Shown in pieces: positions 4,848 to 20,680 of a stretch of 61,854 nt of DNA. The notes under the pieces are model-generated. The model was not told where the DNA came from and did not search any database. It was given only the letters and a program-made list of their open reading frames with translations. How positions within the stretch are numbered: position 1 is the stretch's first letter; each line of letters opens with the position of its first letter. A program made the translations under genes and the position numbers. The stretch is from Clostridia bacterium (lineage in GTDB: Bacteria > Bacillota > Clostridia > Oscillospirales > CAG-272), in contig JAFQWY010000280.1 of assembly GCA_017407225.1 (NCBI GenBank), forward strand, positions 1-61,854, written 5' to 3'.

Positions 4848-6206
4848 CTATTTACGGCTTCTCTGACGGATCAGTTCGATCTCATAATCCGGGGTCATTT
4901 TTTTCCAGAACAGCACCAGAGGAAGTCCGATTGCTGTCAGCCCTGCGGCACGCATGAGGGTGGTGTACTGTACAGCGTAGACTTCCATGCCGAGGAAAAC
5001 GGAAGTGGAATCTCCTGCAAGGGAGCTGATGAATGTACCGGTAATCATGCCGAGAAAGGCAAAAATATTACATCCGATGGTGTTGAAGGAGACACAGGCG
5101 GTGGACTCCTTTTCCGGCAGATTCAGATAGAGAATGTTGGCGTAGGAGAAATTCAGTCCCACGCTGCAGAAATGCTGGATCATGGAGGTGAAGGCCCATA
5201 AGCCTTCCGTGCCGGGTGTCAGGATGAACATGAGAAACTCCGTGGGGACAAAGAACAGGCACGCCATGCCGAAGGTTCTGACCCATGAACAGCGTTTCAG
5301 GATTCTCTGCCAAAGTGCTCCGGAACAGAGCAGGATGACGGTGTAGGTCATGGTGACCAGATTGATGACAGTGTAGGAAAACTGCAGGTGGTTGAGAAGG
5401 TGGTAATTCCAGAGACCGTTGTTCAGATTTCCGATGTAATTCCATGCGAACATGATAACCATGCACAGCATGAATTTCCGGTACTGGAAGGGAATGGTGA
5501 ACACCTTCTTCAGATGCAGTCTCGGCTGTTCGGCATAGGGGTATTCCTTTGCCAGAGCCTGCAGGGCAACATCGGCAAGAACCAGAACGAAAGCGAAGTA
5601 GCGGAAGCCCAGAATCAGCTGATTCTGCATGGAACTTCCTTCCACAGCATCCGTCAGAACACTGCTGACAAGAAGCATGATGCTGGAGAGAATGGAGGAA
5701 AAGGTCTGATTGAATGCGATGTATTTTGTCCGGCGTTCACTTTCCTGGGGGTAGAACCGATAAAACCAGGTGGTGAGTCCGGGGCTGAAAAGCGCATATA
5801 CGGAGTAGGCGAGGAACAGGAGGACAACAAACCAGAACAGGCGATGATCGGGATCCGATACAAAGCGCGGCATCAGAGTGGTAGCAATGATGTACATGGC
5901 GTAGAAATAGACTTTTGCAGCCAGCAGAATCCATTTCCGTTTCTGAAACCGCCCCAGAATCCGCGGCGAAAATACGCTGAAACAGTTGGCTATGTACGGA
6001 ATGAAGGTGACGATTCCCACACCGGTGATGGAAATGTCGTACATGGACAGGAAACCGGTGTAGAATATGCCTGTGATAAAGACGTTGTAGAAGGCGGTGA
6101 TCATGGAGCTTCCGAGGGAGATCAGCCTTCCTTTGCTTTCTTCATCCCGGATACTGTAAATGTCGCTGAGAGATTCTTGCAGGTTTTTGAGAATGAGCAG
6201 CTTCAT
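4848..6206 (-). CDS. MFS-like membrane transporter
   Basis: Polytopic inner-membrane protein of 452 residues with about 12 hydrophobic segments separated by short loops, for example near residues 45-65, 75-95, 140-160 and 395-430. The size and an RRTKYIAFNQTF-type cytoplasmic loop in the middle fit the major facilitator superfamily. The ATG follows a strong GAGGAGGATT ribosome site. It has its own promoter and shares a terminator with the protease gene, so it is monocistronic. Neighbouring galT and glycan enzymes make a sugar or glycoside substrate plausible, but the substrate is not determinable. A multidrug or efflux role remains possible. Confidence 0.75.
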   Translation of the reverse strand: MKLLILKNLQESLSDIYSIRDEESKGRLISLGSSMITAFYNVFITGIFYTGFLSMYDISITGVGIVTFIPYIANCFSVFSPRILGRFQKRKWILLAAKVYFYAMYIIATTLMPRFVSDPDHRLFWFVVLLFLAYSVYALFSPGLTTWFYRFYPQESERRTKYIAFNQTFSSILSSIMLLVSSVLTDAVEGSSMQNQLILGFRYFAFVLVLADVALQALAKEYPYAEQPRLHLKKVFTIPFQYRKFMLCMVIMFAWNYIGNLNNGLWNYHLLNHLQFSYTVINLVTMTYTVILLCSGALWQRILKRCSWVRTFGMACLFFVPTEFLMFILTPGTEGLWAFTSMIQHFCSVGLNFSYANILYLNLPEKESTACVSFNTIGCNIFAFLGMITGTFISSLAGDSTSVFLGMEVYAVQYTTLMRAAGLTAIGLPLVLFWKKMTPDYEIELIRQRSRK

Positions 6207-6239
6207 ATGGAATCCTCCTCAAATGATGTCCTCGCGCTT

Positions 6240-6268
6240 ATTCTAACACAATCATTCGCCCATGGCAA
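6240..6268 (-). promoter_or_regulatory. Promoter of the MFS gene
   Basis: On the minus strand, TTGCCA (6268-6263), 17-bp spacer, TAGAAT (6245-6240). Confidence 0.65.
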
Positions 6269-6304
6269 GTAGCTTTCGGAATTTCCGTCAGAAAAAATAT
6301 CAAT

Positions 6305-6350
6305 GCAAAAAGGCTGCCCCATCGGGAACCCCCCGGATGAAGCAGCCTTC
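6305..6350 (-). terminator. Terminator downstream of galT
   Basis: Inverted repeat AAGGCTGC (6310-6317) / GCAGCCTT (6342-6349). On the minus strand the stem is followed by TTTTTGC, fitting termination of galT transcription. Confidence 0.8.
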
Positions 6351-6357
6351 TGTGCAG

Positions 6358-6474
6358 TTATTTATTGTGTTTCCAGTTGGGCATGGAACGGTCGAACGCC
6401 GGGTTGTAGCCGTAGAAATTGCGGCTGTCCATATGGTCCTGTGCAGTACGGAGCGCATCGCCGTTCTTACTGAT
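6358..6474 (-). pseudogene. Possible 3' remnant of a lost gene between galT and its terminator
   Basis: A 38-codon open frame with no good start lies between the galT stop and the terminator. It is preceded in frame by TGA and ends with TAA at 6360-6358. It has a protein-like composition, including DHMDSRNFYGYNPAFD and the end SMPNWKHNK. It looks more like the C-terminal tail of a deleted gene than random sequence, but I do not recognise the family. An internal ATG would give only a 24-residue peptide and has no clear ribosome site. Confidence 0.35.
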
Positions 6475-6488
6475 TCAAACAGTCCGGA

Positions 6489-7985
6489 TTACTTTCTGAG
6501 AGTGTCGACGAAGCGCAGGAACGCAGCCTTGCCTTCTTCGGTACGCTTGAATACGCCCGCATCTTCCAGAACCTGACGGAATACATCGCCGATTTCCTGT
6601 TCGATGATTTCTCTGGCGTTTTCTCTGTTCAATTCGGGATGGTTCTTCACCAGTTCTTCCGCCCAGTCAGCGTGGCCTGCCAGCTCGGGAATATCGCGGA
6701 GGCTTTCACCTGCGGGGAGAAGTTCTTCCATCTTTTCGATATCCTGCGCCAGACGTGCGGGAAGCACTGCCAGACCCATAACTTCGATCAGACCGATGTT
6801 TTCCTTCTTGATGTGGTGGAGTGCCGGTGCGGGATGGTACAGACCCATGGGTCTCTCTTCGGTGGTGTAGTTGTTGCGGAGAACCAGGTCGCACACGAAT
6901 TCTCCGTTTTCCTTCCGTGCGATGGGAGTGATGGTGTTGTGGGGAGTGCCGTCGGTTTCGGAGAAGATCATGGCAGCGGGATCGCTGTATGCTCTCCACG
7001 CAACGAGAACCTTGTTGCTGCATTCTGCAAGAGCCTTGCGGTCAGCGGAAACAAGGCGGATAACGGACATGGGCCAGTTTACCAGACCTGCCTTGACGGT
7101 GGGATAACCGGGAATTTCAAATTCGGTTTCCACGGGAGCCTTGTTCATGGCGAAGGTGTAGCGGCCGCCCTGGAAGTGTTCGTGACTGAGGATGGAGCCG
7201 CCAACGATGGGCAGATCCGCATTGGAGCCTACGAAGTAGTGGGGCAGGTATTCGATGATGTCGAACAGCTTGTCAAATACAGCAGCGTCGATCTTCATGG
7301 GAACATGAGCCGCATTGAAGAAGATGCTGTGTTCGTTGTAATAGGAGTAGGGGGAGTACTGGAGATTCCAGTCACCGCCCGCTACGGTCATGGGGATGGG
7401 ACGGAGGTTCTGACGTGCAGGATGGCTTACATGACCTGCAAAGCCTGCGTTTTCGGGGCAGAGCTGGCACTTGGGATAAGCGGAGGATTGAACCTTCTTC
7501 GCCAGAGCGATGTCGCGGGGGTCCTTTTCGGGCTTGGAACGGTTGATGGTGATGTCGAGAGTACCGTAAACGGTATCGTGAGTCCAGCGGAGGTCCTTTG
7601 CGATTCTGCCTGCACGGACATAGTTCAGATCCTGGCTGAAGCGGTAGTACCAGTCGGTAGCTTCTTCGGGATCGGACGCATACTTTGCACGGAATTCTGC
7701 GATGACTTCGCGGGGCATGGGAGTGAGAATACCCATCAGCTTGGTGTCGAACAGGTCGCGGGAGCTGGTGGTATCGGGGATGAGTTCCTTTTCGCAGGCG
7801 TAGTTCACCAGGGGAGCAAGGATCGCATCGATATCGTCGCCGGTATAGTCGGCAGTGCAGTCTTCCCAGCCGCCGAGCGCGAGAACGTCAATCAGCGTGT
7901 TCCGTACGACAAAAACATCGTCATTGGTAATCAGCTCTTTTCTGATCCCGTATTCGATCAGATTCTGTACCGCAGTATAAATCAT
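6489..7985 (-). CDS. galT: UDP-glucose--hexose-1-phosphate uridylyltransferase (class II GalT)
   Basis: Leloir pathway enzyme that exchanges UMP between UDP-glucose and galactose-1-phosphate in the cytoplasm. The 498-residue product has the size and sequence of the Firmicutes class II family. It carries QLCPENAGFAGH near the middle and the histidine motif GGSILSHEHFQGG. The start is placed at 7985 because AAAGGTGG lies just upstream; the frame stays open another 25 codons, but that extension is hydrophobic and has no ribosome site. galK and galE are not in the window. It has its own promoter and terminator. Confidence 0.95.
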   Translation of the reverse strand: MIYTAVQNLIEYGIRKELITNDDVFVVRNTLIDVLALGGWEDCTADYTGDDIDAILAPLVNYACEKELIPDTTSSRDLFDTKLMGILTPMPREVIAEFRAKYASDPEEATDWYYRFSQDLNYVRAGRIAKDLRWTHDTVYGTLDITINRSKPEKDPRDIALAKKVQSSAYPKCQLCPENAGFAGHVSHPARQNLRPIPMTVAGGDWNLQYSPYSYYNEHSIFFNAAHVPMKIDAAVFDKLFDIIEYLPHYFVGSNADLPIVGGSILSHEHFQGGRYTFAMNKAPVETEFEIPGYPTVKAGLVNWPMSVIRLVSADRKALAECSNKVLVAWRAYSDPAAMIFSETDGTPHNTITPIARKENGEFVCDLVLRNNYTTEERPMGLYHPAPALHHIKKENIGLIEVMGLAVLPARLAQDIEKMEELLPAGESLRDIPELAGHADWAEELVKNHPELNRENAREIIEQEIGDVFRQVLEDAGVFKRTEEGKAAFLRFVDTLRK

Positions 7986-8067: not shown

Positions 8068-8097
8068 ATTATACCACATTCTTACCGCAACATACAA
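8068..8097 (-). promoter_or_regulatory. Promoter of galT
   Basis: Minus strand TTGTAT (8097-8092), 18-bp spacer, TATAAT (8073-8068). The -35 lies inside the left arm of the inverted repeat at 8089-8099, so a protein bound there could block galT. Confidence 0.6.
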
Positions 8098-8148
8098 TAG
8101 ACATTTTCACGTTGTTTGCGGAGAAAATTTATAGATGTATTGTATGTT
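8089..8148. repeat. 11-bp perfect inverted repeat between galT and the recombinase
   Basis: AACATACAATA (8089-8099) and TATTGTATGTT (8138-8148) are perfect reverse complements separated by 38 bp. The left arm overlaps the galT -35 box and the right arm sits about 90 bp before the small ORF. It could be an operator or a recombinase binding site. Only one copy of the pair was noticed. Confidence 0.6.
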
Positions 8149-8239
8149 CCGTTTGTTTGTCGGTTTCAGGAGAAAAAAGGAGACGGATACCGCCAATAAA
8201 TTTCCGGTACTTTACATAAACTTAACCGGAGGTGATCCC

Positions 8240-8452
8240 TTGACGGAGCAGTATCAGGACAGGAAAAACAATGTTTACCGTATTCTGCACAGAGTCAGAG
8301 ATATAAAAAACGGCAGGGAAGAGACGGAACAAAGAATCGCAGAGGAGCTTGTCCGGATTCTGATCCGGCAGAAAAAAGACGGAGGTGATTCAGACGGCCA
8401 TTGCCGTATACGCAAGGAAATCGGTGGAGAGGGAAAACTCCATCAGTTGTGA
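8240..8452 (+). CDS. Small protein of unknown function translated upstream of the recombinase
   Basis: A 70-codon frame beginning with TTG at 8240, directly after a strong GGAGGTGAT ribosome site. The product is very charged and probably helical (LTEQYQDRKNNVYRILHRV, then EETEQRIAEELVRILIRQKK). It overlaps the start of the recombinase by about 68 bp in another frame, which suggests translational coupling. I do not recognise the family. The strong ribosome site argues that it is translated; the alternative is a decayed leader. Confidence 0.5.
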   Translation: MTEQYQDRKNNVYRILHRVRDIKNGREETEQRIAEELVRILIRQKKDGGDSDGHCRIRKEIGGEGKLHQL

Positions 8453-9914
8453 AACCCAGCTGGAATACTGCCGCGCCATTATCAGACCGGAGGAAAAGCA
8501 GGAAGAGGTTTTCACTTTCGTGGACAACGGTTTTTCCGGCGGAAACGTGGATCGGGACGGATTCCGGCAGATGATGCACCTGGTCAGAGAGGGCAGAATC
8601 CGCAAGATCATTGTTTACCGACTGGACAGGATCAGCAGAAGTCTTTCCGATTTCATGGGGATTCTGGAAACGCTGAAGGAAAACGATGTGGTATTTGTCA
8701 GCTCCCAGGAATCCTTTGATACCGGAAGCCCGTACGGTGAGATGATCGTGAAGATTCTGATGGTATTTGCGGAATTCGAGCGTCAGAGCATCATCGAGCG
8801 CATCACACAGGCATACCTTCATCGCTCCGGACTGGGAATTTATATGGGCGGCAGAAGACCGTACGGATTCCGTTTCTCAAATACCAGCATTCATGGGATC
8901 CGGACAAAAATGCTTTCTGCCGATGAGAAGGAAATCGGGCATATCCGGTATATATTCCGGCAGTATGCACAGAGCGGTGTCACCCTGCGGCGGCTGATGG
9001 ATGATCTGAACCAAAAAGGGATGCTGCCGAAGGAGGGAAGCTGGTCTGCCGCGAAGCTTTCGGTGATTCTGAAAAATCCCATCTATGTGAGGGCGGACAA
9101 CAGGATATATGAATATTTTGCCGGCCGCCGTGCGGATATCATCAGTAAAGCGGAGCAGTTTGACGGGATTCACGGGATTCAGCTGTACGGACAGACAAAG
9201 CACAGCCGGGAGGACTGGTCGGATATCCGTGTTGTCGTCATGCCCCACGAAGGGGTTGTACCGGCGGAGATATGGCTGAGATGTCAGAAAAAACTGGCAG
9301 AGAACCGTCAGATCGGAAACTCCGTCAGCAACACCACAAGCTGGCTGGGCGGCATGATGATCTGCAAAAGCTGCGGAAGAACCATGACGGTCACAAAAGG
9401 CGGAAAGCGCGCGGACGGAAGCCGGATCCGATACTTCAGCTGTACGGGGAAATCCCACAACCGGATCTGCGAAGGTCCCGATGTGACTCTGTACGCCGAC
9501 AGTCTGGAGGAGATGGTATTCCGGCTGATCGGAGAAAAACTGAGCGGGCTGAAAGATCTCCGGATCCGGAGTGAACCGGAGAATCCCGAAAGACTGAACC
9601 GTCTGAAAAACCGTCTGACGGAAATCCGGAACGCTCAGATGCTGCTGACGGAACGCATTCTGGAGCCGGGTATTGATTCGGATCTGATGAAACTGATGAA
9701 TGAAAAGGCACGGACACTGGCAGCGGAGGCAGAGACCCTGAAAGCCGAAGCAGATGCCATGGAAGCCGACTCCGGGGAACTGATTGCCACCGGTGTTCTG
9801 GAACAGCGGTGGCAGAACGCGGAGTATGAAGACAGGAAAGCCGTGTGCAGACTTCTGATCGACAGAATCTTGCTTCACCGGGACGGAACCGCCGAGGTGG
9901 TATGGAATCTGTAA
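8385..9914 (+). CDS. Large serine recombinase
   Basis: Site-specific DNA recombinase of 509 residues. The N-terminal resolvase domain (about 5-150) has the catalytic serine in VYARKS (S13) and the arginine-rich YRLDRISRS motif. A recombinase domain follows (about 165-260). A zinc ribbon (CKSCGR near residue 325, later cysteines before GPD) and a C-terminal coiled-coil-like region (about 400-480) complete the layout. The assigned start is GTG at 8385. The GGAGG ribosome site abuts it, so initiation is unusual and may be coupled to the overlapping small ORF or use a near-cognate codon a few residues downstream. No integrase cargo or attachment site was recognised nearby. It could act on DNA elsewhere or be a relic of an element. 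Confidence 0.9.
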   Translation: MIQTAIAVYARKSVERENSISCETQLEYCRAIIRPEEKQEEVFTFVDNGFSGGNVDRDGFRQMMHLVREGRIRKIIVYRLDRISRSLSDFMGILETLKENDVVFVSSQESFDTGSPYGEMIVKILMVFAEFERQSIIERITQAYLHRSGLGIYMGGRRPYGFRFSNTSIHGIRTKMLSADEKEIGHIRYIFRQYAQSGVTLRRLMDDLNQKGMLPKEGSWSAAKLSVILKNPIYVRADNRIYEYFAGRRADIISKAEQFDGIHGIQLYGQTKHSREDWSDIRVVVMPHEGVVPAEIWLRCQKKLAENRQIGNSVSNTTSWLGGMMICKSCGRTMTVTKGGKRADGSRIRYFSCTGKSHNRICEGPDVTLYADSLEEMVFRLIGEKLSGLKDLRIRSEPENPERLNRLKNRLTEIRNAQMLLTERILEPGIDSDLMKLMNEKARTLAAEAETLKAEADAMEADSGELIATGVLEQRWQNAEYEDRKAVCRLLIDRILLHRDGTAEVVWNL

Positions 9915-9917
9915 AAA

Positions 9918-9968
9918 AATACCGCACATCCCAATGGGTGAGCCATCGGAGTGTGCGGCAGATTTTTA
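9918..9968. terminator. Bidirectional terminator after the recombinase
   Basis: CCGCACA (9922-9928) / TGTGCGG (9952-9958), with T runs on both strands, between convergent genes. Confidence 0.85.
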
Positions 9969-10868
9969 TTTCAGCCATCGGGCAATTTCATCGCTGTACC
10001 GGGAGTCCGGATACTTTTTCACAACATATCCGTGGGGACCGGAATCATCGTAACGGAAGCTGTTTTCACCGGTTTCGGCATCGGCGGAAGCATATCCGCG
10101 GCGGAGTGTGTACCCGGCTTCTCCGATATCTTCCGTCAATGCCAGAAGAACCAGCATGGGATCCCAGGAGGATCGGCCGTTCCTGCTGCCGTGGGCGATG
10201 AATGCCATGCGGAGGGGATCGCTGTCGTCGGGGATTGTCCGGGGTGTGCCGCTGATCACCGCTGCTCCCACTTCCCAGCCCAGCAGAACGATGGGACAGG
10301 GACAATGCTCAAACAGATAGGCAGCGGCCTGACGGGACATGGGAGCCCGTGCAATATTGTTCTCCCGTCCATGTCCGTTGTTCTCCCAGTTTCCTGCCAT
10401 CATCCACAGGCATTTCACCTTGTCCCGAAGATACCGGTATCCCGTGGGATGGGCGCAGAGGGACGCCAGAATCTGCGGATAACCGATCTCCAGCAGTTCG
10501 GCTTCTTCGGTCTGTTCCAGAAGACGGAGATACAGATCCAGTCCGTTTTCCGCGGATTCATTGGATGCATCGGGATGAGGCAGGGAAGCGAGAAGTTTCT
10601 GATATGCCGGATTTCCGCCGTAACCGACAGCACTGCGGTCGATTCCTATGGGGAGGCTTTCCATGCCTTCCGCAGTGCAGAACGCGCTGAGGGATGGAAC
10701 CGAGTACGGCATACAGGCATTGAGAACGATTCCTGTCAGGTTCCACAGGCCTGCTTTATGGGCACGGCAGGCGATCCGTACCGCTGCGGCATCATCGCAG
10801 TCCGTCCACCAGTCCGTTCCCAGTATGACGGTGCGTCCGGGCTTTTCTGCAGAGTGAGCGGAAGTCAT
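9966..10868 (-). CDS. Nucleoside hydrolase-like protein
   Basis: 300-residue protein resembling the inosine-uridine nucleoside N-ribohydrolase family, which cleaves N-glycosidic bonds with a calcium-bound aspartate cluster. The N-terminus has VILGTDWWTDCDDAAAV, matching the DTDxGxDDA signature with an unusual WW insertion in the loop. A WEVGAAVISG segment and a late metal-region aspartate (SSWDPMLVL) also fit the family. The ATG at 10868 lies one base after the stop of the upstream ThuA-like gene, showing tight coupling. It is the last gene of the operon that starts at 16465. The operon contains no base-salvage gene, so a non-nucleoside substrate such as a glycosylamine is possible. Confidence 0.8.
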   Translation of the reverse strand: MTSAHSAEKPGRTVILGTDWWTDCDDAAAVRIACRAHKAGLWNLTGIVLNACMPYSVPSLSAFCTAEGMESLPIGIDRSAVGYGGNPAYQKLLASLPHPDASNESAENGLDLYLRLLEQTEEAELLEIGYPQILASLCAHPTGYRYLRDKVKCLWMMAGNWENNGHGRENNIARAPMSRQAAAYLFEHCPCPIVLLGWEVGAAVISGTPRTIPDDSDPLRMAFIAHGSRNGRSSWDPMLVLLALTEDIGEAGYTLRRGYASADAETGENSFRYDDSGPHGYVVKKYPDSRYSDEIARWLK

Positions 10869-10869
10869 C

Positions 10870-11598
10870 TCACACAATGGGTTCCTTGATGTGGATGCAT
10901 CCGCCGGGAATTTCGTAACCGAAATCGGCGGGAGCTGCCCAGTGAACACCGTTTTTGATAATCTGCTGTACGTAGGGATTGTGGAAGGAGGGGCATCGTT
11001 CGTGACCGGGCTGGAAGTAGAAAATCTTGCCGGCACCCCGTCTCCAGGTACAGCCTGCACGCATCATGTTGCCGTGTTCGAACCAGCCGCCGAAGATGAT
11101 TTCATCGGGCGTAGGGATGTAGAAGGGCTCGCCGTACATTTCTTCCACATCCAGAATAAAGTGATCGGGAATTCCTGCGGCGATGGGGTGGGAGGGATTC
11201 AGATTCCAGATAATTTCCTTCTGATCCTGTCCCCAGGAAAGATTGCCGGTGGTTCCGAGAATCTGCTTGAAGGGCTTGGAATGATGACCGGAGTGAACGG
11301 GAACAAATCCCATTTTGCCGGCATAGACTCTCTGACGGATTCTTTCCACCAGCGCATCATCCACTTCGCCGTGTGCGGTATGTCCCCACCAGATGAGTAC
11401 ATCGGTGTTGTTCAGAACCTCGTCGGGCATACCCTGATCGGGATCATCCAGGGTTGCATAAGTGATTTCCAGATCTTCACATTCGGAAAGAAAAGCGCCG
11501 ATGGTCTTGTGAATGCCTTCGGGATAGATGGCGCGTACCTGTTCGCTGCGTTTTTCGTGCCGGTATTCATTCCAGATAGTAACACGGATTTTTTTCAT
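10870..11598 (-). CDS. ThuA-like (trehalose utilization) domain protein
   Basis: 242-residue protein with the class I glutamine-amidotransferase-like fold of ThuA. Typical family stretches are VTIWNEYRHEK at the N-terminus, DVLIWWGHTAHGEV, GFVPVHSGHHSKPF and GKIFYFQPGHE. ThuA relatives accompany sugar dehydrogenases of the Gfo/Idh/MocA family and are thought to process keto-sugars. This one sits 46 bp downstream of such a dehydrogenase and overlaps functionally with the nucleoside-hydrolase-like gene behind it. AAGGAG precedes the ATG. The exact reaction is unknown. Confidence 0.88.
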   Translation of the reverse strand: MKKIRVTIWNEYRHEKRSEQVRAIYPEGIHKTIGAFLSECEDLEITYATLDDPDQGMPDEVLNNTDVLIWWGHTAHGEVDDALVERIRQRVYAGKMGFVPVHSGHHSKPFKQILGTTGNLSWGQDQKEIIWNLNPSHPIAAGIPDHFILDVEEMYGEPFYIPTPDEIIFGGWFEHGNMMRAGCTWRRGAGKIFYFQPGHERCPSFHNPYVQQIIKNGVHWAAPADFGYEIPGGCIHIKEPIV

Positions 11599-11644
11599 AC
11601 TGAAATCTCCTTATGTAGTAAATGATGGCTGTCGTGCAGTGCTC

Positions 11645-12598
11645 TTACTTTGCCGCCTGAATCACGGCGATGGTGTCGAGAACCGCTTCCAGCTCCCAGG
11701 GCTTCATGATTTCCGGCTTGGTGCCGTTTTTCACGCAGTCCGCAAAGTAACGCAGTTCGTTGTAGTATCCGTTGGTGGTGGGGACATAGTTGTTTTCATC
11801 CACACCGCTGTTCTGACCGAATTCCTCGGTGGTCCAGTCATCTTTGGAGATTCTCAGTTTGCTGCCGTCGAAGTCCAGTACCGCCTTTTCAAACTGGAAC
11901 CGGAAGTTGGCGCGGAACTGAATGGGAGCATGGAACCATGCGGATTCGCAGGCTACGGGCACATCGCCGAACTTATAGATGACATGCATATAGTCCATGG
12001 CGTGGTAGAGGTGATCGATCTGAGGCTTGCCCATGGTGTAGATCAGGAAATCCAGATCATGGATGTGGAGGTCGAAGGGAACCATGCCGCTGCGCTCGGG
12101 ATCCTGCATCCAGTTGTCCCAGCTTGCACGGGGAATGGAGCCGATCCGGGTCATGGTGCCGCTGACCAGTTTGCCGAACCGTCCGGTGTCCATGCAGTCC
12201 TTGAGGTACATATATTCCGGCCAGAAGCGGAGAACATGGGCTACCATGAAGAAGCGGTTGTTCTTTTCTGCAGCATCGTAGACCCGCGCCACATCGTCTC
12301 TTTTCAGGGAAATGGGCTTTTCCGTCACAACATGGATTCCCTTGTTCAGCGCCTTTACCGCGAAATCCGCGTGCATATAGGTGGGCAGGGTGATATCCAG
12401 AATGTCGAAGGTTTCTTTTTCCAGCATTTCATCGAAGTCCGTGTACTTGCGTGCGGTGATTTTTCCGTCGAAGCGATCCATCTTTTCGGGACGGATGTCG
12501 CAGATTGCCACAAGTTCAACATCCTCCATTCGGCTCCATGAGGGAATATGGGATCCGCTGATGCCGCCGATGCCGACTTCCGCTACTCTAAGTTTCAT
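11645..12598 (-). CDS. Gfo/Idh/MocA family oxidoreductase (aconitase X operon)
   Basis: 317-residue NAD(P)-dependent dehydrogenase. The Rossmann loop is VGIGGISGSH near the N-terminus, the EKP motif is VVTEKPISL near residue 93, and a catalytic-region histidine pair appears in PFDLHIHDLDFLIY. The ATG follows AGGAAAGGAAT. It lies 60 bp downstream of the small aconitase X subunit and 46 bp upstream of the ThuA-like gene, in one transcription direction with no terminator between. The pairing with ThuA and a nucleoside hydrolase-like protein suggests oxidation of a glycoside or sugar-like substrate, followed by cleavage. Confidence 0.92.
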   Translation of the reverse strand: MKLRVAEVGIGGISGSHIPSWSRMEDVELVAICDIRPEKMDRFDGKITARKYTDFDEMLEKETFDILDITLPTYMHADFAVKALNKGIHVVTEKPISLKRDDVARVYDAAEKNNRFFMVAHVLRFWPEYMYLKDCMDTGRFGKLVSGTMTRIGSIPRASWDNWMQDPERSGMVPFDLHIHDLDFLIYTMGKPQIDHLYHAMDYMHVIYKFGDVPVACESAWFHAPIQFRANFRFQFEKAVLDFDGSKLRISKDDWTTEEFGQNSGVDENNYVPTTNGYYNELRYFADCVKNGTKPEIMKPWELEAVLDTIAVIQAAK

Positions 12599-12658
12599 AA
12601 CAGTGATTCCTTTCCTGAAATTATTTAAGTTGGTTGTATCAGTATCTCGAGATTTGGG

Positions 12659-13105
12659 TCAGCCGTCAACTTCCACGGTGCCGTCCGCCTTTACGGTGAT
12701 CTTCATGCCGTCCTTTACATAGCTGAGGAATTCGTCGCCCAGCGAGTCAACCACGGGCATGGTCACGCCGTCCACCCACACGTCCGCCAGAACCGCACCG
12801 GCTGCCGCAAGTGAGTCGATGTGTCCGGAGAACAGCATGCAGGCGGGATTCTTGCCCAGCGCGCAGGCACAGTAAAGTACCAGTCCGCCCGTGGTGGAAC
12901 CGATGGTCTGGGGCAGACACAGCGCCCTGCCGATCATGGGCTTGCCGTACAGGTTACGGTTGCTCTGGTCGCCGCACTTCACTTCCTTGTCGCCGAACTG
13001 CAGCGCCATCTGGAAGGATGCCAGCGTATTGAAGCCTTCGGTTGTCACAACCGCTTCCGCGGTGACTTCTCCGGGGGTGACAACTCTGCCTTTGAATGTC
13101 TTCAT
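12659..13105 (-). CDS. Aconitase X small subunit (swivel domain, DUF126 type)
   Basis: 148-residue swivel-domain subunit of a two-subunit aconitase X. The catalytic serine/glycine region typical of aconitase swivels is seen in LPQTIGSTTGGLVLY. The family start, FKGRVVTPGEVTAEAVVTT, is also clear. Its ATG overlaps the stop of the large subunit by four bases (ATGA), as expected for a stoichiometric heterodimer. Characterised members dehydrate cis-3-hydroxy-L-proline or, in archaea, mevalonate 5-phosphate. The substrate here is not known. Confidence 0.9.
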   Translation of the reverse strand: MKTFKGRVVTPGEVTAEAVVTTEGFNTLASFQMALQFGDKEVKCGDQSNRNLYGKPMIGRALCLPQTIGSTTGGLVLYCACALGKNPACMLFSGHIDSLAAAGAVLADVWVDGVTMPVVDSLGDEFLSYVKDGMKITVKADGTVEVDG

Positions 13106-14379
13106 GCGTTCTTACCTCCTGTGATGGTGTGCAGAATCTCCTCGTCGGTGTAGTACCGTGCGCTGGTGTAGGTGCGCAGCTTGTTGGATGAGGTGATGAC
13201 GGGCATCTTCTTGCACAGCGGGTTGTTCATGTACATCAGCGGGCAGATATAGGAAGTGATCACCCCTGCCGCCTTCAGCCGTGCCGCGTACTCCGTCTTT
13301 GCAAAGGCTTCCAGTACCCCGGGAGATGCGGTGAACACGGTGGGAACGGTCACCTTCTTCAGACCGTTCTTCTTCAGCTCTCCCTCGATTTTCTCCGTCC
13401 AGTCCTTCAGCTGACCCAGAGACAGGTGTGGACATCCCACGAAGCACAGTCTGGGTGCGGCATCGGGATTCTTCCAGATCACGGGATAGTTCTTCTTCAC
13501 CCGTTCCAGTTCCGCGTCGTCAATAATGTATTCCTTCGCCCCTTCCGCGATCAGGCTCTCGCCCAGCTCAACCGCTTCGGGAGTGAGATTTGCGATATGG
13601 TACAGCCCTACCGCACCGTTGGAGGCCGTGGCCGCACCGAAATCTTTCAGATATGCGCAGGCGGAGTCGTTCAGCTCGGTGCCGATCCACTGATCAAGAC
13701 CTACCACATAGGGTACGTCTTCCATGACCTTCATGCCGATGGCAGAGCCGAGAAGCTGTGCCTCGGGTTTCTTCGTGGTCTGTATTTTCACGATCCACGT
13801 TGCCTTTCTGCCCTCATCCGTCAGCAGACCGAAATAGGGTACATACCCCACAATGGAGCCCATGATGTCGATGATCCCGGAGTTCCGGTTGCATCTTGCG
13901 CCCAGAACGGAGTTTGCATAAACCACCGCGCTGGATTCCGCCCAGGACAGGATATCGCCCTTCTTCGGCTTGTTTCCCACTTCATCCATGTAGCAGGTAC
14001 AGGTGAAGGCATCCTTGTCCATCAGCCCCAGTTTGTTCAGCTGATCCTCGTAGAAATCCTGCTTGGTGTACATAAATTTATTGAACACCAGATTCTGCAG
14101 GAAGTTTGCGGGGACATTTTTGTCCAAAGGTCTGGGGTCAACGGAGAACTTCTGTCCGGATGCCACGCCTGCGTCCAGAATCTGCTGCATCAGGTCGTAC
14201 ACCGGTGACATCACCTTCAGACCGAAGGAGGTCACCAGATGGTTATATTTGGAAGTGATGGGCACCAGCTTTTCCGCTTCGAAAGCGTCGCCGTACATCA
14301 CCAGCGTTTTCATGACCTTGGCGAGAGTTTCACCCTGGGCGCCGTCAAGAATTGCCTGCTGTTCTTTTGTCAGTATCAT
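13102..14379 (-). CDS. Aconitase X large (catalytic, Fe-S) subunit
   Basis: 425-residue DUF521-type subunit of aconitase X, a lyase that uses an iron-sulfur cluster. Conserved family segments include the start MILTKEQQAILDG, the cysteine-bearing CTCYMDEVGN and GARCNRNSGIIDIM, and FVGCPHLSLGQL. The cysteines in these three segments probably bind the cluster. It is followed with a 4-base overlap by the small subunit and preceded at 16 bp by a flavin/Fe-S oxidoreductase. Known bacterial relatives convert cis-3-hydroxy-L-proline to pyrroline-2-carboxylate. The neighbours here (Gfo/Idh/MocA, ThuA, nucleoside hydrolase) are not those of hydroxyproline catabolism, so a different hydroxy acid is likely. 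Confidence 0.92.
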   Translation of the reverse strand: MILTKEQQAILDGAQGETLAKVMKTLVMYGDAFEAEKLVPITSKYNHLVTSFGLKVMSPVYDLMQQILDAGVASGQKFSVDPRPLDKNVPANFLQNLVFNKFMYTKQDFYEDQLNKLGLMDKDAFTCTCYMDEVGNKPKKGDILSWAESSAVVYANSVLGARCNRNSGIIDIMGSIVGYVPYFGLLTDEGRKATWIVKIQTTKKPEAQLLGSAIGMKVMEDVPYVVGLDQWIGTELNDSACAYLKDFGAATASNGAVGLYHIANLTPEAVELGESLIAEGAKEYIIDDAELERVKKNYPVIWKNPDAAPRLCFVGCPHLSLGQLKDWTEKIEGELKKNGLKKVTVPTVFTASPGVLEAFAKTEYAARLKAAGVITSYICPLMYMNNPLCKKMPVITSSNKLRTYTSARYYTDEEILHTITGGKNA

Positions 14380-14395
14380 AATTATAGCTCCTGTC

Positions 14396-16465
14396 TTACA
14401 GTTTCATGCATACATCCCATGCGCCCCAGATCACGGTGCGGAGATTGCCCACATTGGCGGCGTCGCCGATGACGTGAATGTGCCGTCCCTTCTGTGCCAC
14501 GGGTGCCGGATTGTAGCCCACGGACAGAATCACGGAATCCGCCGGAATTTTGAACTGCCTGCCGTCCTTGTCCTTCACGGTCACGCCGTCCTTTTCGATG
14601 GCACACACGGAGGTTTCCAGATGCACGGGTACCTTGTTGGTCTTGAAGCAGTCCCGGAGGTAGCTGGTATTGGCAAGGCAGATGCCCTTGGCGGTGATCA
14701 GGTCGTCCTGCATTTCCACAATGGTGGGCTTCTTTCCCTGCAGGAACAGATCGTACGCGATTTCGCATCCGGTCAGACCGCCGCCGATGACAACCACGTT
14801 CTCACCCACGGTTTTGTTTCCGAGGAGGTAATCCACCGCTTCCACGGCAGTATCCGCACCGGGTACGGGGATCCGTTTTGCCCTGGCGCCGGTTGCCACG
14901 ATGATTTCGTCCGCATCCAGTGCGCTTACATCGGTGATTTCGGTGTTCAGCTTCACGGAGATGGGATATTTGGTGATTTCACGGCGGTACCATGCGATCA
15001 GAGCACGGTCCTTTTCCTTGAAGGAGGGAGCTGCCGCCGCGATGAACACGCCGCCCAGCACGCCGGATTTTTCGTAAAGGGTCACGCTGTGTCCCCGCTT
15101 TGCACAGACCAGTGCCGCTTCCATACCGCCGATTCCGCCGCCGATGACTGCGATTTTCTTCGCCTTCTTCGCCGGTTCCAGATGATACTTCTTCGACTGC
15201 ATGGTTTCGGGGTTCAGCGCGCACCGTGCCAGCCCCATGGTATCGGTCAGATCCTGGGTATTGGCGTGTCCCTTGGAGGAAGAGAAGTTGAAGCATCCCG
15301 CATGACAGCAGATGCAGGGTCTGATATCTTCCAGACGGTCTTCGATCAGCTTGGTGACCCATGCGCCGTCGGTGAGGAACTGACGGGCAACGCCCACGCC
15401 GTCGATTCTGCCCTCAGCCACTGCCCTGGCACCTGTTTCGGGATCCATACGTCCCGCGCAGACCACGGGGATATCCACGAACTGTTTGATGTGCGCCACG
15501 TCGTCCAGATTGCAGTTTTCGGGCATATACATCGGCGGATGCGCCCAGTACCAGGAGTCGTAGGTGCCGTTGTCGGCGTTGAGCATATCGTAGCCGCAGT
15601 CCTGAAGATACTTTACCGCACGCTCGGATTCCGCCATGGATCTGCCCGCTTCGGTGTACTTTTCACCGGGCATTGCCCCTTCGCAGAATCCCTTCATCTT
15701 GGATTCCACGGAGTACCGGAGAGATACGGGATAGTCCGCTCCGCAGGCTTCCTTGATGGCTTTCACCACCTCGGCGGCGAACCGGTAGCGGTTTTCAAAG
15801 CTTCCGCCATATTCATCGGTACGCTTGTTGAAGAATTCCATGGAGAACTGGTCGAGAAGGTAGCCCTCGTGAACCGCGTGCACTTCCACGCCGTCCACAC
15901 CCGCATCCCGACACAGCTTCGCGGTCTTTGCGAAGGCTTCGATGATCTCGTGGATCTGCTCCACGGTCATTTCGGGACATTCGATGTCGTGTGCCCAGCG
16001 GGATTTCTGGGGACTGGGGCTTGCCAGCTCGTGTGAGGTGTCGATAATGGGCTTGATGAGGGCGCGGGTCAGTTTGTTCTTATGCAGGGGCGCCACCAGC
16101 TCGGTGATTGCCCAGGAACGTCCCATGCCCGCGGTCAGCTGGATGAACAGCCTGGCACCGGTCCTGTGGATCTCGTCCATGAAGACCTTCAGTTCCTCGA
16201 ACATCTTGGGATTCTGCCACAGCCACTTTCCCCAGAAGGTGTCGCGGAGAGGTGCGATGCCGGGGATGATCAGACCTACATTGTTGTTCGCACGTTCCAG
16301 GAACAGCTTCGCCGCCTCCTTGTCGAAGTGGCAGCCGGTCAGCTCAAACCACCCGAACAGGGACGTGCCGCCCATGGGACACATCACGATGCGGTTTTTG
16401 ATCTCCACATTGCCGATCTTCCACGGGGTAAACAGGGCTTCATATTTTGCATCGGTTTTTTGCAT
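14396..16465 (-). CDS. NADH:flavin oxidoreductase / 2,4-dienoyl-CoA reductase-like Fe-S flavoenzyme
   Basis: 689-residue cytoplasmic enzyme with three parts. An old-yellow-enzyme TIM barrel that binds FMN spans about 1-370; the region with GVEVHAVHEGYLLDQF carries catalytic histidines, followed by KRTDEYGGSFENR. A 4Fe-4S cysteine set follows (CICCHAGC near residue 400, with a later cysteine). The C-terminal FAD/NAD-binding domain has two dinucleotide motifs (AVIGGGIGGMEAAL and VVIGGGLTGCEIAYDL). The architecture matches 2,4-dienoyl-CoA reductase and trimethylamine dehydrogenase relatives. As first gene of the aconitase X operon it may reduce or dehydrogenate the same carbon skeleton. The substrate is unknown. 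Confidence 0.92.
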   Translation of the reverse strand: MQKTDAKYEALFTPWKIGNVEIKNRIVMCPMGGTSLFGWFELTGCHFDKEAAKLFLERANNNVGLIIPGIAPLRDTFWGKWLWQNPKMFEELKVFMDEIHRTGARLFIQLTAGMGRSWAITELVAPLHKNKLTRALIKPIIDTSHELASPSPQKSRWAHDIECPEMTVEQIHEIIEAFAKTAKLCRDAGVDGVEVHAVHEGYLLDQFSMEFFNKRTDEYGGSFENRYRFAAEVVKAIKEACGADYPVSLRYSVESKMKGFCEGAMPGEKYTEAGRSMAESERAVKYLQDCGYDMLNADNGTYDSWYWAHPPMYMPENCNLDDVAHIKQFVDIPVVCAGRMDPETGARAVAEGRIDGVGVARQFLTDGAWVTKLIEDRLEDIRPCICCHAGCFNFSSSKGHANTQDLTDTMGLARCALNPETMQSKKYHLEPAKKAKKIAVIGGGIGGMEAALVCAKRGHSVTLYEKSGVLGGVFIAAAAPSFKEKDRALIAWYRREITKYPISVKLNTEITDVSALDADEIIVATGARAKRIPVPGADTAVEAVDYLLGNKTVGENVVVIGGGLTGCEIAYDLFLQGKKPTIVEMQDDLITAKGICLANTSYLRDCFKTNKVPVHLETSVCAIEKDGVTVKDKDGRQFKIPADSVILSVGYNPAPVAQKGRHIHVIGDAANVGNLRTVIWGAWDVCMKL

Positions 16466-16512
16466 GGATTTTTCATCCTTTCTCAGACGGTGTTATTGTG
16501 CAGTCTGTATGT

Positions 16513-16541
16513 ATTTTATCATATTTTTCCGAAGTGTTCAA
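16513..16541 (-). promoter_or_regulatory. Promoter of the aconitase X operon
   Basis: Minus strand TTGAAC (16541-16536), 17-bp spacer, TAAAAT (16518-16513), about 48 bp before the first start codon. Confidence 0.65.
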
Positions 16542-16623
16542 GATTTCCGCCAAGATTGTGTCCGTGAATTTCACCTGAGACTGTATTCAGGGGAATTCTG
16601 CGGAAAATAATTCCGCAAAGATG

Positions 16624-16652
16624 TAGAAAAGAACCGGTCATTATGGTATAAT
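16624..16652 (+). promoter_or_regulatory. Promoter of the 16767-20680 gene pair
   Basis: TATAAT at 16647-16652 with a weak -35 (TAGAAA, 16624-16629) at 17-bp spacing. The poor -35 suggests an activator may be needed. Confidence 0.55.
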
Positions 16653-16681
16653 AAGTCACATAACAGAAAAGGAGACGTGCA

Positions 16682-16720
16682 ATGGGGCTTGATTCATGCT
16701 CTGTGAACGGAGATCACTGA
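16682..16720 (+). CDS. Possible 12-residue leader peptide
   Basis: ATG at 16682 follows a good AAGGAG ribosome site by seven bases, and a short frame encodes MGLDSCSVNGDH before TGA. It lies inside the transcribed leader of the next gene, 46 bp before that start codon, which has its own AAAGGAGG site. It could couple translation to downstream expression. No terminator-antiterminator pair was recognised, so a regulatory role is only suggested. Confidence 0.35.
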   Translation: MGLDSCSVNGDH

Positions 16721-16766
16721 AAAAAACGGGTTTAACGACGTATTACGACTGTAAAAGGAGGCGCTT

Positions 16767-18788
16767 ATGCATATTCCATCCCCCTTCATTCCGCTCCGTG
16801 CGGAAACCGTGAATTACGAACATACCGTCCATGTAATCGGACGCGACTACACTGTCGGTGCCGACGGAATGATTACTTCCATCCGTTCCGAGGGTGTTGA
16901 ACTTCTTGCCGCACCCATGCGTATCGTCGCAGTGGAAGACGGAGAAGCGGCCAACTGGGATACCGACTACCCGGAAAACGAATCCGAAAGCTTCATCCAG
17001 CGCCGGTCCGATGAAGAAATTGTCATCTGCGGTGCCAAACAGTCCGAACGGTTCATCGTGGATGTGTGCTGTCACATTGACTACGACGGCTGCATCGATA
17101 TGGATTTCAAGCTGATGACCCGGGGCAAAACCGTGGCGCAGGTTTTCGGAATTGCCGAGGCAAAGCCCACGCTGTTCAAGCTGGATAAACTCTGGCTGGA
17201 GATTCCTCTACGGGCTGAGGCCATGACTCTGTTCCATATGCATCCCAACAGCGCACTGGATCTTGATGACGGAACCGTGCGGCCGCATACCGATATGTCC
17301 ATGAGCGGAGCGATCCCGGCTCAGTCTGCGGCAATGCCCTTCAAATCCCTGCTTTGGGTGGGTGATGAGAAGAGAGGGCTTGGCTGGTTCGCGGAAAACG
17401 ACCGGAACTGGCAGCCTGCCGACCGGAACCGTGCCATGGAGCTTGTCAGGGAGGGGGAAGCCCTCATTCTGCGGGTTCATCTCCTTGACAGCCACCCGAA
17501 GGCATGGTCGGCGGATCCTGTGCACGGGATCTACAGCTATCAGCCGGTGGAATTCGCCTTCGGTCTGCACGCGACTCCCGTCAAGCCTTTCCCGAAGCAG
17601 CCCTATATCCACAACGCGTTCCATCTGGACTGCGGCATCAAGGTCAAGGGCAACTACATCGATGTTCTGGCGGGACGGTACGACGAACTGAAGGAAAAAG
17701 GTGTGACCACGCTGATCCTCCACGAAAAGTGGAATAAATCCCAGAACTGGTTCGAGCTGAGCGAGTTCACGAAGCACCAGATTCAGACCATCACCGATGA
17801 ATGCCACAAGCGCGGGATCAAGGTGCTGACCTACTTCGGCTACGAAATTTCCACCATGTCCCCCGAATGGAGCGAACTGAAGGACAAGACCGCCAACAAG
17901 AATTCACGGAACCGTCTGGAAGGCGGATGGTGGCGTGTTCCGTTCCAGCGGGCGTACAATGTATGCTACAACAGCGAATACGCGGATCTTTTCATTGAAG
18001 GAATCACGAGAATTATGGACGAATGCCACACCGACGGGGTTTACCTGGACGGCACCACCCATGCCCGGATGTGTTATTCCACCGATCACGGATGCGGCTG
18101 GTACGATGAGGAAGGCAATCTCCACGGCAGCTACCGCTGGAGTGCGGTACGGAGACTGTTCAAGCGGCTGTACGAAGTTGTCCAGTCCCGGGGCGGGGAA
18201 ATCAATGTCCATGCCTTCGGATTCATCAATTTCACCGCAATTCCGTACATCCATCAGAACTGGTACGGCGAGAATCTGCAGTTTGCTCTGATGAAGGGTT
18301 CCTCCGCTGACATGAATCTGGACTATTTCCGTGCGGAATACATCGGACGGAACATGGGCGCACCGGTGGAATTCATCGCATATGCAAATCCGCCGCTGTG
18401 GACATTCGATCAGGCGCTCTCCTGTTCCGTTCTCCACGGAATTCTGCCGCGCCCCAACGATATCGGATATCCTCTCGAGCTGATGAGCAGGGTATGGAAG
18501 ATCTTTGATGCGTTCCCTATTGAGCAGTCCGAGTGGATGCCCTACTGGACGAATCAGGCAGAATCTTCCCACGAAAAAGTGAAGATCAGCTACTACCGGT
18601 ACACCGATCTGATGGGCAGTGCGCATCTGCTTGCCTTTGCGGTCAACATCTCCGCTTCTCCCATTGACAGCGTCACCGTTTCCTTCCCGGAAGAAGTGAC
18701 TGCGGCGAAAGATATGCTCCACGACGGAGTCACCGGATTCACTTTCCCCATGGACGGATACGGATGCCGGATTCTGTTTGTGAAATGA
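16767..18788 (+). CDS. Glycoside hydrolase-like protein (DUF6067/GH123-like TIM barrel)
   Basis: 673-residue protein without a signal peptide. The first half is a beta-sandwich-like region. The second half (about 290-600) looks like a TIM barrel: HEKWNKSQNWFE, HKRGIKVLTYFGYEIS, then DECHTDGVYLDGTTHAR and VHAFGFINFT. The acidic residues in DGVYLDG are candidate catalytic groups. The overall arrangement recalls the DUF6067 group of putative glycosidases. It is 14 bp upstream of a second glycosidase-like gene, so they form an operon. The likely substrate is an imported oligosaccharide. Family placement is moderate; a specific activity is not claimed. Confidence 0.65.
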   Translation: MHIPSPFIPLRAETVNYEHTVHVIGRDYTVGADGMITSIRSEGVELLAAPMRIVAVEDGEAANWDTDYPENESESFIQRRSDEEIVICGAKQSERFIVDVCCHIDYDGCIDMDFKLMTRGKTVAQVFGIAEAKPTLFKLDKLWLEIPLRAEAMTLFHMHPNSALDLDDGTVRPHTDMSMSGAIPAQSAAMPFKSLLWVGDEKRGLGWFAENDRNWQPADRNRAMELVREGEALILRVHLLDSHPKAWSADPVHGIYSYQPVEFAFGLHATPVKPFPKQPYIHNAFHLDCGIKVKGNYIDVLAGRYDELKEKGVTTLILHEKWNKSQNWFELSEFTKHQIQTITDECHKRGIKVLTYFGYEISTMSPEWSELKDKTANKNSRNRLEGGWWRVPFQRAYNVCYNSEYADLFIEGITRIMDECHTDGVYLDGTTHARMCYSTDHGCGWYDEEGNLHGSYRWSAVRRLFKRLYEVVQSRGGEINVHAFGFINFTAIPYIHQNWYGENLQFALMKGSSADMNLDYFRAEYIGRNMGAPVEFIAYANPPLWTFDQALSCSVLHGILPRPNDIGYPLELMSRVWKIFDAFPIEQSEWMPYWTNQAESSHEKVKISYYRYTDLMGSAHLLAFAVNISASPIDSVTVSFPEEVTAAKDMLHDGVTGFTFPMDGYGCRILFVK

Positions 18789-18802
18789 CAGGGGTATTAT
18801 AA

Positions 18803-20680
18803 ATGAAAAATTACTACATCGGCGTGAATTACTGGGACAGCGCAAGCGGCACCGATATGTGGGTGAACTTCGACGAAGCCGTGATAGATGCGGATCTGGA
18901 AGCGCTTGAGAAAATCGGTGTGGATACCCTGCGCATCTTCCCGAACTGGCGGGATTTTCAGCCCGTGACAATTCTGTACGGCTGGCGGGGCAATTTCGTG
19001 GAATACCGTCTCACCGGCGACCGGTTCCCGGAAAACGAATTCTATCTGGATCCCGTGATGATCGAGAGATTCCTCACCGTCTGCGATCTGGCACAGAAGC
19101 ACGGCATGAAGCTGATTGTGGGTGTGGTGACCGGATGGATGAGCGGCAGACTGTTCGTCCCTCCCGCGCTGGAAGGAAAGAACATCATTTCCAATCCCGA
19201 AGCCCTTATGTGGCAGACGAAATTCTGCCGCGGATTTGTCCGTGCCGTGAAGCATCATCCCGCAATCGATGCATGGGAACTGGGCAACGAATGCAATTGT
19301 CTGGGACACACTTCCTCACGGTACGAGGCATGGCTCTGGACGAATACCGTCCGCTCGGCCATTTCCGCAGAAGACCCGTCCCGCCCCGTTTACTCCGGGA
19401 TGCACGGGATTGAGGCGGAGGAGGGAACTGCGTGGACCATTGAAGATCAGGGAGAGCTGACCGATATGCTCACCTGCCATCCCTATCCGTCGCCCACCGT
19501 GGGAGGGGATGTGACTCCTGCGAACCGTCTGCGGTGTACCATGATTCCCACAGCACAGCTGGCGTATTATTCCGGCATTTCCCACCGTCCTGCCATGATC
19601 GAGGAGCAGGGAACTTTCAGCGATATGCTTATCAACCGGGAAGGAGCGGCGGATTTCGTCCGCGTAAATCTGCTTTCCGGCTGGGCGAACGGCTCGAAGG
19701 GATATCTGTGGTGGTGCGGAGCGGAGCATCTGAAGCTGATACAGCCGCCCTACTCCTGGTCCATGATCGAGCGTGAACTGGGTATTGTTGATACCGACCG
19801 TGATCCCAAGCCCGTGGGACGGACCATGAAAGAGGTATCAGACCTTCTCAAGAGTCTGCCCGAACTTCCGCCGAAGCAGATGGATGCCGTATGTGTTCTG
19901 CCCCGTGAAACCAGGCACTGGCCCTCGGCGGCATCGGCATATATTCTTGCAAAGCAGGCAGGAATCGAACTGACCATGATGACCTCCCGGCAGATCACGA
20001 AGTCTTCCGAGCTTCCCGATGCGCCCTTGTATATCGTCCCGTCCCTTACCGGATGGGCACCGCTCCACAAGGAAGCATACGATGCACTTCTGGAAAAGGC
20101 ATACAACGGTGCGGTTCTCTACTTCTCCGTGGCAACCGGATTCATCACCGAATGCGAAAAGGTTACGGGCATGACCTCCCACGGAATGTACAACGCGGGC
20201 GGCGATACCATGACATTTGCGGACGGAACCACGCTTCCCATGCAGTACCAGAAGAAATTCCTGCTGGAAAGCATCGGTGCGGAAATTCTCGCGCGGGATT
20301 CCTACGGCAATCCGGTGTTCACGAAGAATACCTTCGGCAAAGGCACGGTCTATATGCTGTACTTCCCCGTGGAGCAGATGATGTGGAACAATGCACTTGC
20401 TTTCACCGGTCGGGATAAGCCCGATTACAGCAGAATCTACCGCATCATCGGTGACAGTGTGATCGCGTCCCATCCCATTGACTCCGCCAACAATCAGATC
20501 GGCGTGACCCTGCATCCGAAGGAAAACGGGTATTACGCCGTGTTCATCAACTATGACAACGCGGCCCAGGATGGGGAAGTGACGGTCAGACCGGGATGGA
20601 AAATGCATCCCATATACGGTGACGTAACCCGGATCGGGAAATGCGGCATGGCCGTAACGGAGCTGAGAAGGATGAAATAA
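18803..20680 (+). CDS. Clan GH-A glycosidase, GH5-like
   Basis: 625-residue protein with a catalytic TIM barrel in the first 340 residues. The acid/base motif WELGNE (E163) is preceded by a canonical strand. The nucleophile candidate is in PAMIEEQG (E267 or E268). After the barrel comes a trimerisation/amidotransferase-like alpha/beta domain (about 380-520) and a small C-terminal sandwich, a layout also seen in GH42-like beta-galactosidases and some mannanases. There is no signal peptide. It lies 14 bp after the previous gene in one operon. The exact family (GH5, GH42 or a related one) cannot be fixed by eye. Confidence 0.78.
   Translation: MKNYYIGVNYWDSASGTDMWVNFDEAVIDADLEALEKIGVDTLRIFPNWRDFQPVTILYGWRGNFVEYRLTGDRFPENEFYLDPVMIERFLTVCDLAQKHGMKLIVGVVTGWMSGRLFVPPALEGKNIISNPEALMWQTKFCRGFVRAVKHHPAIDAWELGNECNCLGHTSSRYEAWLWTNTVRSAISAEDPSRPVYSGMHGIEAEEGTAWTIEDQGELTDMLTCHPYPSPTVGGDVTPANRLRCTMIPTAQLAYYSGISHRPAMIEEQGTFSDMLINREGAADFVRVNLLSGWANGSKGYLWWCGAEHLKLIQPPYSWSMIERELGIVDTDRDPKPVGRTMKEVSDLLKSLPELPPKQMDAVCVLPRETRHWPSAASAYILAKQAGIELTMMTSRQITKSSELPDAPLYIVPSLTGWAPLHKEAYDALLEKAYNGAVLYFSVATGFITECEKVTGMTSHGMYNAGGDTMTFADGTTLPMQYQKKFLLESIGAEILARDSYGNPVFTKNTFGKGTVYMLYFPVEQMMWNNALAFTGRDKPDYSRIYRIIGDSVIASHPIDSANNQIGVTLHPKENGYYAVFINYDNAAQDGEVTVRPGWKMHPIYGDVTRIGKCGMAVTELRRMK

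Follow-up and report, generated by a model that had tools for sequence, protein, structure and literature searches.

An aconitase X pair and an old-yellow-enzyme-type flavoenzyme as a three-gene unit, with a proposed role in reductive dehydroxylation

The DNA analysed here (the window) is a whole contig of 61,854 b from a Clostridia bacterium, namely contig C156 of a 375-contig genome that is about 92% complete. As the initial annotation had it, six genes stand in a row on the minus strand at 9966..16465, each with the family named for it, which the open reading frames and Pfam bear out. We report that the first three of them, encoding an old yellow enzyme (OYE)-type flavoenzyme and the large and small subunits of an aconitase X (AcnXL and AcnXS), almost certainly constitute a three-gene unit. 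We also propose, with reasonable confidence, that the AcnX pair dehydrates an organic acid and that the flavoenzyme then reduces the C=C bond so formed.

The OYE-AcnX unit among relatives

The unit opens with the flavoenzyme gene (14396..16465), whose product of 689 aa joins PF00724 Oxidored_FMN to PF07992 Pyr_redox_2 and is a candidate ene-reductase of the FMN/FAD/Fe-S type. After 16 nt follows AcnXL (13102..14379, 425 aa; PF04412), which overlaps by 4 nt with the gene of the swivel subunit AcnXS (12659..13105, 148 aa; PF01989 AcnX_swivel), all on the minus strand. A search of genome contigs with the AcnXL protein gave at least 591 stretches matched by pattern, 590 of which encode a relative. 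The best 80 of these at least 590 relatives, all from metagenome-assembled genomes, are called the named loci below; they include at least one from outside the window's family (L046, which shares its contig with L189). Of the 80 locus titles, 57 mention a hindgut site (caecum, colon or rectum) of cattle, goat, sheep, deer, buffalo or yak. Immediately 5' of AcnXL, and on the same strand, 78 of the 80 have an OYE orthologue, at a spacing of 12 to 654 nt (50 nt or less in 57 of the 78), and AcnXS lies 3' of AcnXL in all 80.

The two partners also occur together at the level of genomes. Among 295 genomes of the window's family, AcnXL is found in 83, the OYE orthologue in 85 and both in 81, with 208 having neither, 4 having OYE only and 2 having AcnX only (a contig-edge case and a fragment); with the two genome lists matched up by eye and relatedness ignored, the co-occurrence has a Fisher p of 6e-65. 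The OYE match of some co-carrying genomes is on a separate contig; in G194 and G227 this copy is a more distant one, and in G031 a contig ends there. Within the genus AcnXL is carried by four of nine genomes. When the 939 neighbour open reading frames in the named loci are clustered, no further family exceeds 16 loci; the one that reaches 16 has a representative lying antisense across AcnXS, and the next real recurring neighbour is a MarR family in 11 of 80, with a MarR gene directly 5' of OYE in 10 of 80. With no other family above that count in the 80 neighbourhoods, OYE-AcnXL-AcnXS stands as a self-contained cassette across many settings, and its patchy presence, together with an identity of up to 93% across genera, suggests horizontal spread. 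Of viral stretches, 25 matched the pattern and none was confirmed, while among the 20 listed of 160 plasmid matches only two records, both of R. opacus PD630, exceed 30% identity.

Beyond the family, an AcnX profile search at E 1e-15 finds the enzyme in 25 of 398 genomes of the phylum, and at E 1e-50 around four of the phylum matches (centres included) in 3 of 22, 6 of 17, 4 of 24 and 19 of 291 genomes. All matches of these searches in the clade of the window's AcnX, together with R. opacus, make a wider set of 35 loci that are 39-91% identical; one of them (L206) is a contig-end piece, two have an identical AcnXL segment, and L189 repeats L046. An adjacent OYE-family gene is present in 25 of these 35 loci (24 of 34 distinct ones). 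AcnX loci from outside the clade have none, whether short (0 of 19) or longer (0 of 6; L144-L148, L151). The OYEs linked to AcnX belong to at least three types, which are 30-47% alike and lie either 5' or 3' of AcnX. Their tree is partly congruent with that of AcnX (Mantel r 0.41 for 29 pairs, with 0 of 2000 permutations as high), and the OYE of L193, which differs in type from that of its AcnX sister group, may be read as a partner swap.

Two further loci are described here for their content. At L150, on a plasmid of R. opacus PD630, a clade AcnX pair (15001-16730) has a LysR gene upstream; a luciferase-like flavin oxidoreductase lies two genes further along, and no OYE is adjacent. At L146 (4145-9600, minus strand), the genes that come after an out-of-clade AcnX encode a TRAP permease and an aldehyde ferredoxin oxidoreductase.

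The downstream genes and the surroundings of the row

The rest of the row encodes a Gfo/Idh/MocA oxidoreductase (11645..12598, 317 aa; a GFO_IDH_MocA Pfam match), a ThuA-domain protein (10870..11598, 242 aa; PF06283) and a nucleoside-hydrolase-like protein (9966..10868, 300 aa), likewise on the minus strand, at distances of 60, 46 and 1 nt, the ATG of the last gene at 10868 being 1 base past the ThuA stop. The hydrolase-like label holds weakly, as PF01156 is below its cut-off (19.9 against 34.2 bits) and a profile of relatives matches the purine nucleosidase 3t8i at a weak E of 7e-5.

The initial annotation presented the six genes as one co-conserved system. Queried via AcnX, ThuA, hydrolase-like and Gfo proteins, such co-conservation was not found, and only OYE, AcnXL and AcnXS are kept together. 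At E 1e-15, homologues of the last three genes stand beside AcnX in 0 of the 80 named loci, of which 64 have at least 2 kb of sequence past AcnXS, and the trio is beside the module in none of the three same-genus genomes with OYE-AcnX. ThuA relatives are found in 191 of the 295 family genomes; 29 of their loci (flanks of about 1.5 kb or less) and 11 larger regions hold no AcnX, Gfo orthologue or hydrolase-like gene, and one region (L244) has distant Gfo homologues of about 25% identity. Gfo orthologues occur in 5, and hydrolase-like relatives in 22, other genomes of 176, and in 19 hydrolase-like loci and 9 larger regions of both kinds the other trio members are absent, except for one distant Gfo homologue in L266. 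The three genes 3' of the cassette look like a local adjacency. Of the partners once assigned to AcnX, the loci examined bear out the flavoenzyme and speak against the other three, and the suggested pathway, in which a glycosylated or N-linked acid is oxidised and cleaved, loses most of its support because it rests on these three.

The six genes could still work as one pathway in this genome, as a recently assembled operon whose Gfo, ThuA and hydrolase-like products supply or process the acid. Such an arrangement would fit the common strand, the short gaps, the strong terminator after the last gene (9905..9970, minus strand; an intrinsic hairpin of -29.6 kcal/mol, z -6.9) and the GH123_N-like gene that, with a second gene, diverges upstream of the row. 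It would also fit the 60-nt AcnXS-Gfo gap, which folds no better than shuffles and has no hairpin. We nevertheless consider it unlikely, since in the relatives examined no two trio orthologues stand together and none stands beside AcnX, and since a promoter-like site lies in that same gap (12641..12669, minus strand). Where the initial annotation placed its promoter, at 16513..16541 on the minus strand, there is indeed a promoter-like site (TTGAAC-17-TAAAAT, with TG ahead of the -10), although its being the single one is not borne out in view of this second site. Both are consensus matches only, and the region's 7 promoter-like sites do not clearly exceed the number in shuffled sequence (mean 4.4, sd 2.2). 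Because the gap lacks a hairpin and yet has a promoter-like site, the row may be read as one transcript or two.

A large serine recombinase gene (8385-9914, plus strand; Resolvase, Recombinase and Zn_ribbon domains) converges on the terminator of the row and may belong to a mobile element or be what is left of one. Carbohydrate-acting genes also surround the row, at 16767-20680, 45500-46783 and 52959-55805; the set consists of a GH123_N-like gene, an unassigned protein weakly matching GalB, an Apiosidase-like gene and a GH38.

Active-site residues and the proposed reaction

The pair belongs to the two-subunit AcnX by its profiles, with PF04412 at 310.4 bits (E 2e-92, cut-off 31.5) and PF01989 at 43.2 bits (cut-off 27). 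For the residues, alignments were read against the crystal paper (PMC8184944), with C379, K400 and the Tyr mapped via AtAcnX, as the aligned Tk chain reached only residue 328. C127, E148, S149, C316, C379, K400 and Y404 are kept in all 81 rows (the window and the 80 named loci), and the general-base Ser70 of the small subunit is conserved; the pair is predicted to be a heterodimeric [4Fe-4S] dehydratase. AcnX enzymes strip an alpha proton and a beta hydroxyl to give an unsaturated acid (PMC8184944), and the reaction is reversible, PMDh having been assayed as a hydratase (PMC10040528).

As the initial annotation anticipated, the AcnX differs from both characterised activities, the specificity residues of the cis-3-hydroxy-L-proline (C3LHyp) and the mevalonate 5-phosphate (MVA5P) types being replaced. 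Of the MVA5P landmarks, Asn79 is Asp81, Ala47 is Val49, Ser50 is Phe52 and Val64 of the small subunit is Thr72, leaving only the small-subunit Leu27, as Leu28.

A rival reading is a cis-3-hydroxy-L-proline dehydratase, the activity of AcnX types I and IIa (PMC8184944). The small-subunit Thr72, a C3LHyp landmark, is present, and L141, alone among the genomes examined, has a proline racemase family gene adjoining the module, with ornithine-cyclodeaminase-family and YbaK/ProX-like genes also near it (158-1896 and 10361-11368). We regard this activity as quite improbable here. Thr72 is the only landmark kept among the hydroxyproline-reading residues; Trp35 is Leu28, Ile206 is Phe52, and the position of Asp203, whose alanine mutant in AtAcnX is (almost) inactive (PMC8184944), is Val49 in all 81 rows and in 34 of the 35 wider-clade rows, with Asp found there in three AcnX outside the clade. 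The NCBIfam cis-3-hydroxyproline dehydratase model gives 134.6 bits against a cut-off of 700, and no proline genes were recognised by eye among the listed neighbours in five related loci with the OYE type of L141 (L161, L162, L167-L169).

Two arginines are specific to the clade. In the 35 rows formed by the window and 34 loci, position 83 (DPRP motif) is Arg in 33 and Lys in 2, against 0 of 7 rows outside, and R402 (SNKLRTY) is kept in 34, against 0 of 6 outside. The AcnX relatives of L204 and L205 (AcnXL at about 8074-9339 and 5289-6554, minus strand), 41% identical, lack Lys400, Glu148 and Tyr404, as well as the Ser-Thr-Thr loop of the small subunit. They probably represent a different enzyme, perhaps inactive or repurposed.

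The flavoenzyme has its nearest PDB relatives in NCR (6qkg), which we take to be 2-naphthoyl-CoA reductase, and in 2,4-dienoyl-CoA reductase (1ps9). It shows the Oxidored_FMN and Pyr_redox domains, the two active-site His, the Tyr and the Cys motif of the Fe-S members of the OYE family. Throughout 29 AcnX-linked OYEs, H196, H199, Y202, R116 and R250 are invariant, as are C384, C391 and C415, while a further Cys of the motif varies; an Fe-S cluster is predicted.

From these features we infer the following order of steps. Ser70 of the small subunit would remove the alpha proton of a beta-hydroxy carboxylic acid, whose second anionic group would be held by Arg83 and/or Arg402, while Fe, Glu148 and Lys400 would take off the beta hydroxyl. 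The alpha,beta-unsaturated acid thus formed would then be reduced at its C=C bond by the flavoenzyme, probably with NADH. On balance, an organic acid taken up by the cell would undergo reductive dehydroxylation, which would probably serve as an electron sink. Reduction is suggested because a gene of an ene-reductase family adjoins AcnX and is swapped in one locus for a fumarate-reductase-like set: directly after AcnXS, L194 has a 198-aa open reading frame and SdhA/FrdA-like and FrdB-like genes, with no adjacent OYE. Such enoates are good electron acceptors, the enoate/saturated acid couples lying far above NAD+/NADH, so that NADH would drive the reduction. The extra arginines, and a TRAP-TAXI transporter in one locus (L090, a named locus without OYE, where a TAXI receptor and a DctM permease lie directly 5' of AcnXL), point to an anionic, probably dicarboxylic substrate, and its assignment as a di- or tricarboxylic acid is possible, if somewhat doubtful. 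The opposite direction, in which the flavoenzyme oxidises a saturated acid to the enoate and AcnX hydrates it, is very improbable in spite of the reversibility of AcnX and of the dehydrogenases in the flavoenzyme family (those of trimethylamine and histamine are among the members matched), as the couples just named favour reduction in anaerobes and L194 pairs AcnX with a fumarate-reductase-like set, although that family works both ways.

Some loci also carry regulator genes next to the module. Six of them (L141, L161, L162, L167-L169) have a sigma-54/PAS activator gene 5' of OYE, and in L143 a related activator gene stands ahead of AcnXL. Five loci, L139 (10104-11501) and L163-L166, have a chemoreceptor-like gene divergent to the module, possibly for taxis toward the substrate; Pfam was applied to L139 and to a fragment in L163, which matched only DUF4077. 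Regulators, chemoreceptor and transporter would be consistent with a response induced by an organic acid that the cell takes up.

Several observations weigh against dehydration followed by reduction. An adjacent OYE gene is missing from 2 of the 80 named loci and, when adjacent genes only are considered, from 10 of the 35 clade loci (L138, L150, L192, L194, L197, L199, L201, L204, L205, L206), of which L197, L199 and L201 come from genomes of 0.9-1.2 Mb; the reductase is therefore either not obligatory or encoded elsewhere in the genome. The fumarate-reductase-like and TRAP contexts are one locus each, the racemase gene of L141 adjoins an OYE-AcnX module, and OYE-family enzymes do other chemistry too. 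L143 has an OYE partner while lacking R402 and the TSF motif, the variable loops (47-53, 81-83) were mapped across alignment gaps, and the role given to the two arginines is a reading of the alignment. A broader reading, possible and still tentative, would have a widespread, probably mobile cassette of anaerobes in which an unassigned, two-arginine AcnX subclass turns a hydroxy acid into an unsaturated di- or tricarboxylic acid that exchangeable ene-reductases, either OYE types or a fumarate-reductase-like complex, use as electron acceptor.

Significance and known systems

The literature searched, which was short on preprints and most subscription papers, gave no paper naming both AcnX and OYE, and the word 'flavin' is absent from the available text of the three main AcnX papers (including PMC5144071). 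Among the papers listed on tricarballylate and the rumen, on OYE and gut dehydroxylation, on enoate reductase operons or on gut respiration, none offered a direct lead. The conserved partner hints at the type of AcnX product, namely something that an ene-reductase can reduce. If true, the proposal would add a third AcnX activity and a route on free acids, with no CoA, that removes hydroxyls from dietary acids in the herbivore gut, and the cassette may bear on the fate of reducing power and dietary hydroxy acids in the hindgut of these animals.

On the flavoenzyme side, the domain layout is that of the BaiCD, bilirubin reductase and mycofactocin OYE group. These give the best NCBIfam matches (348.6, 366.9 and 276.8 bits respectively), all far below the curated cut-offs of 825, 750 and 793, and the window's enzyme differs also in its link to AcnX. 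On the AcnX side, the type IIb MVA5P dehydratases (TkAcnX, 7cnr/7cns; ApPMDh) are the best PDB match at E 2.7e-43; they share the heterodimer and the equivalents of the cluster Cys, Glu, Ser and general-base Ser (Lys and Tyr by way of AtAcnX), whereas the window's AcnX has the additional Arg83 and Arg402, an OYE partner and a bacterial host. The C3LHyp enzyme AtAcnX is of the same family, with an equivalent of the window's Thr72, and its Lys530/Tyr534 and Cys508 have equivalents in the window, where those of Asp203, Trp35 and Ile206 are lacking, the subunits are two and Cys316 is as in type IIb. Also alike are the bacterial AcnX of types IIc-IIf, which, in the parts of PMC8184944 and PMC10040528 available, are two-subunit enzymes lacking the full C3LHyp or MVA5P landmarks, with their function described as unknown in 2021-2023. 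The AcnX-OYE pairing makes the question of their function testable by a two-enzyme assay that needs no knowledge of the pathway. While no function or partner is reported for them in those parts, the AcnX of the window has an OYE-type flavoenzyme as its partner.

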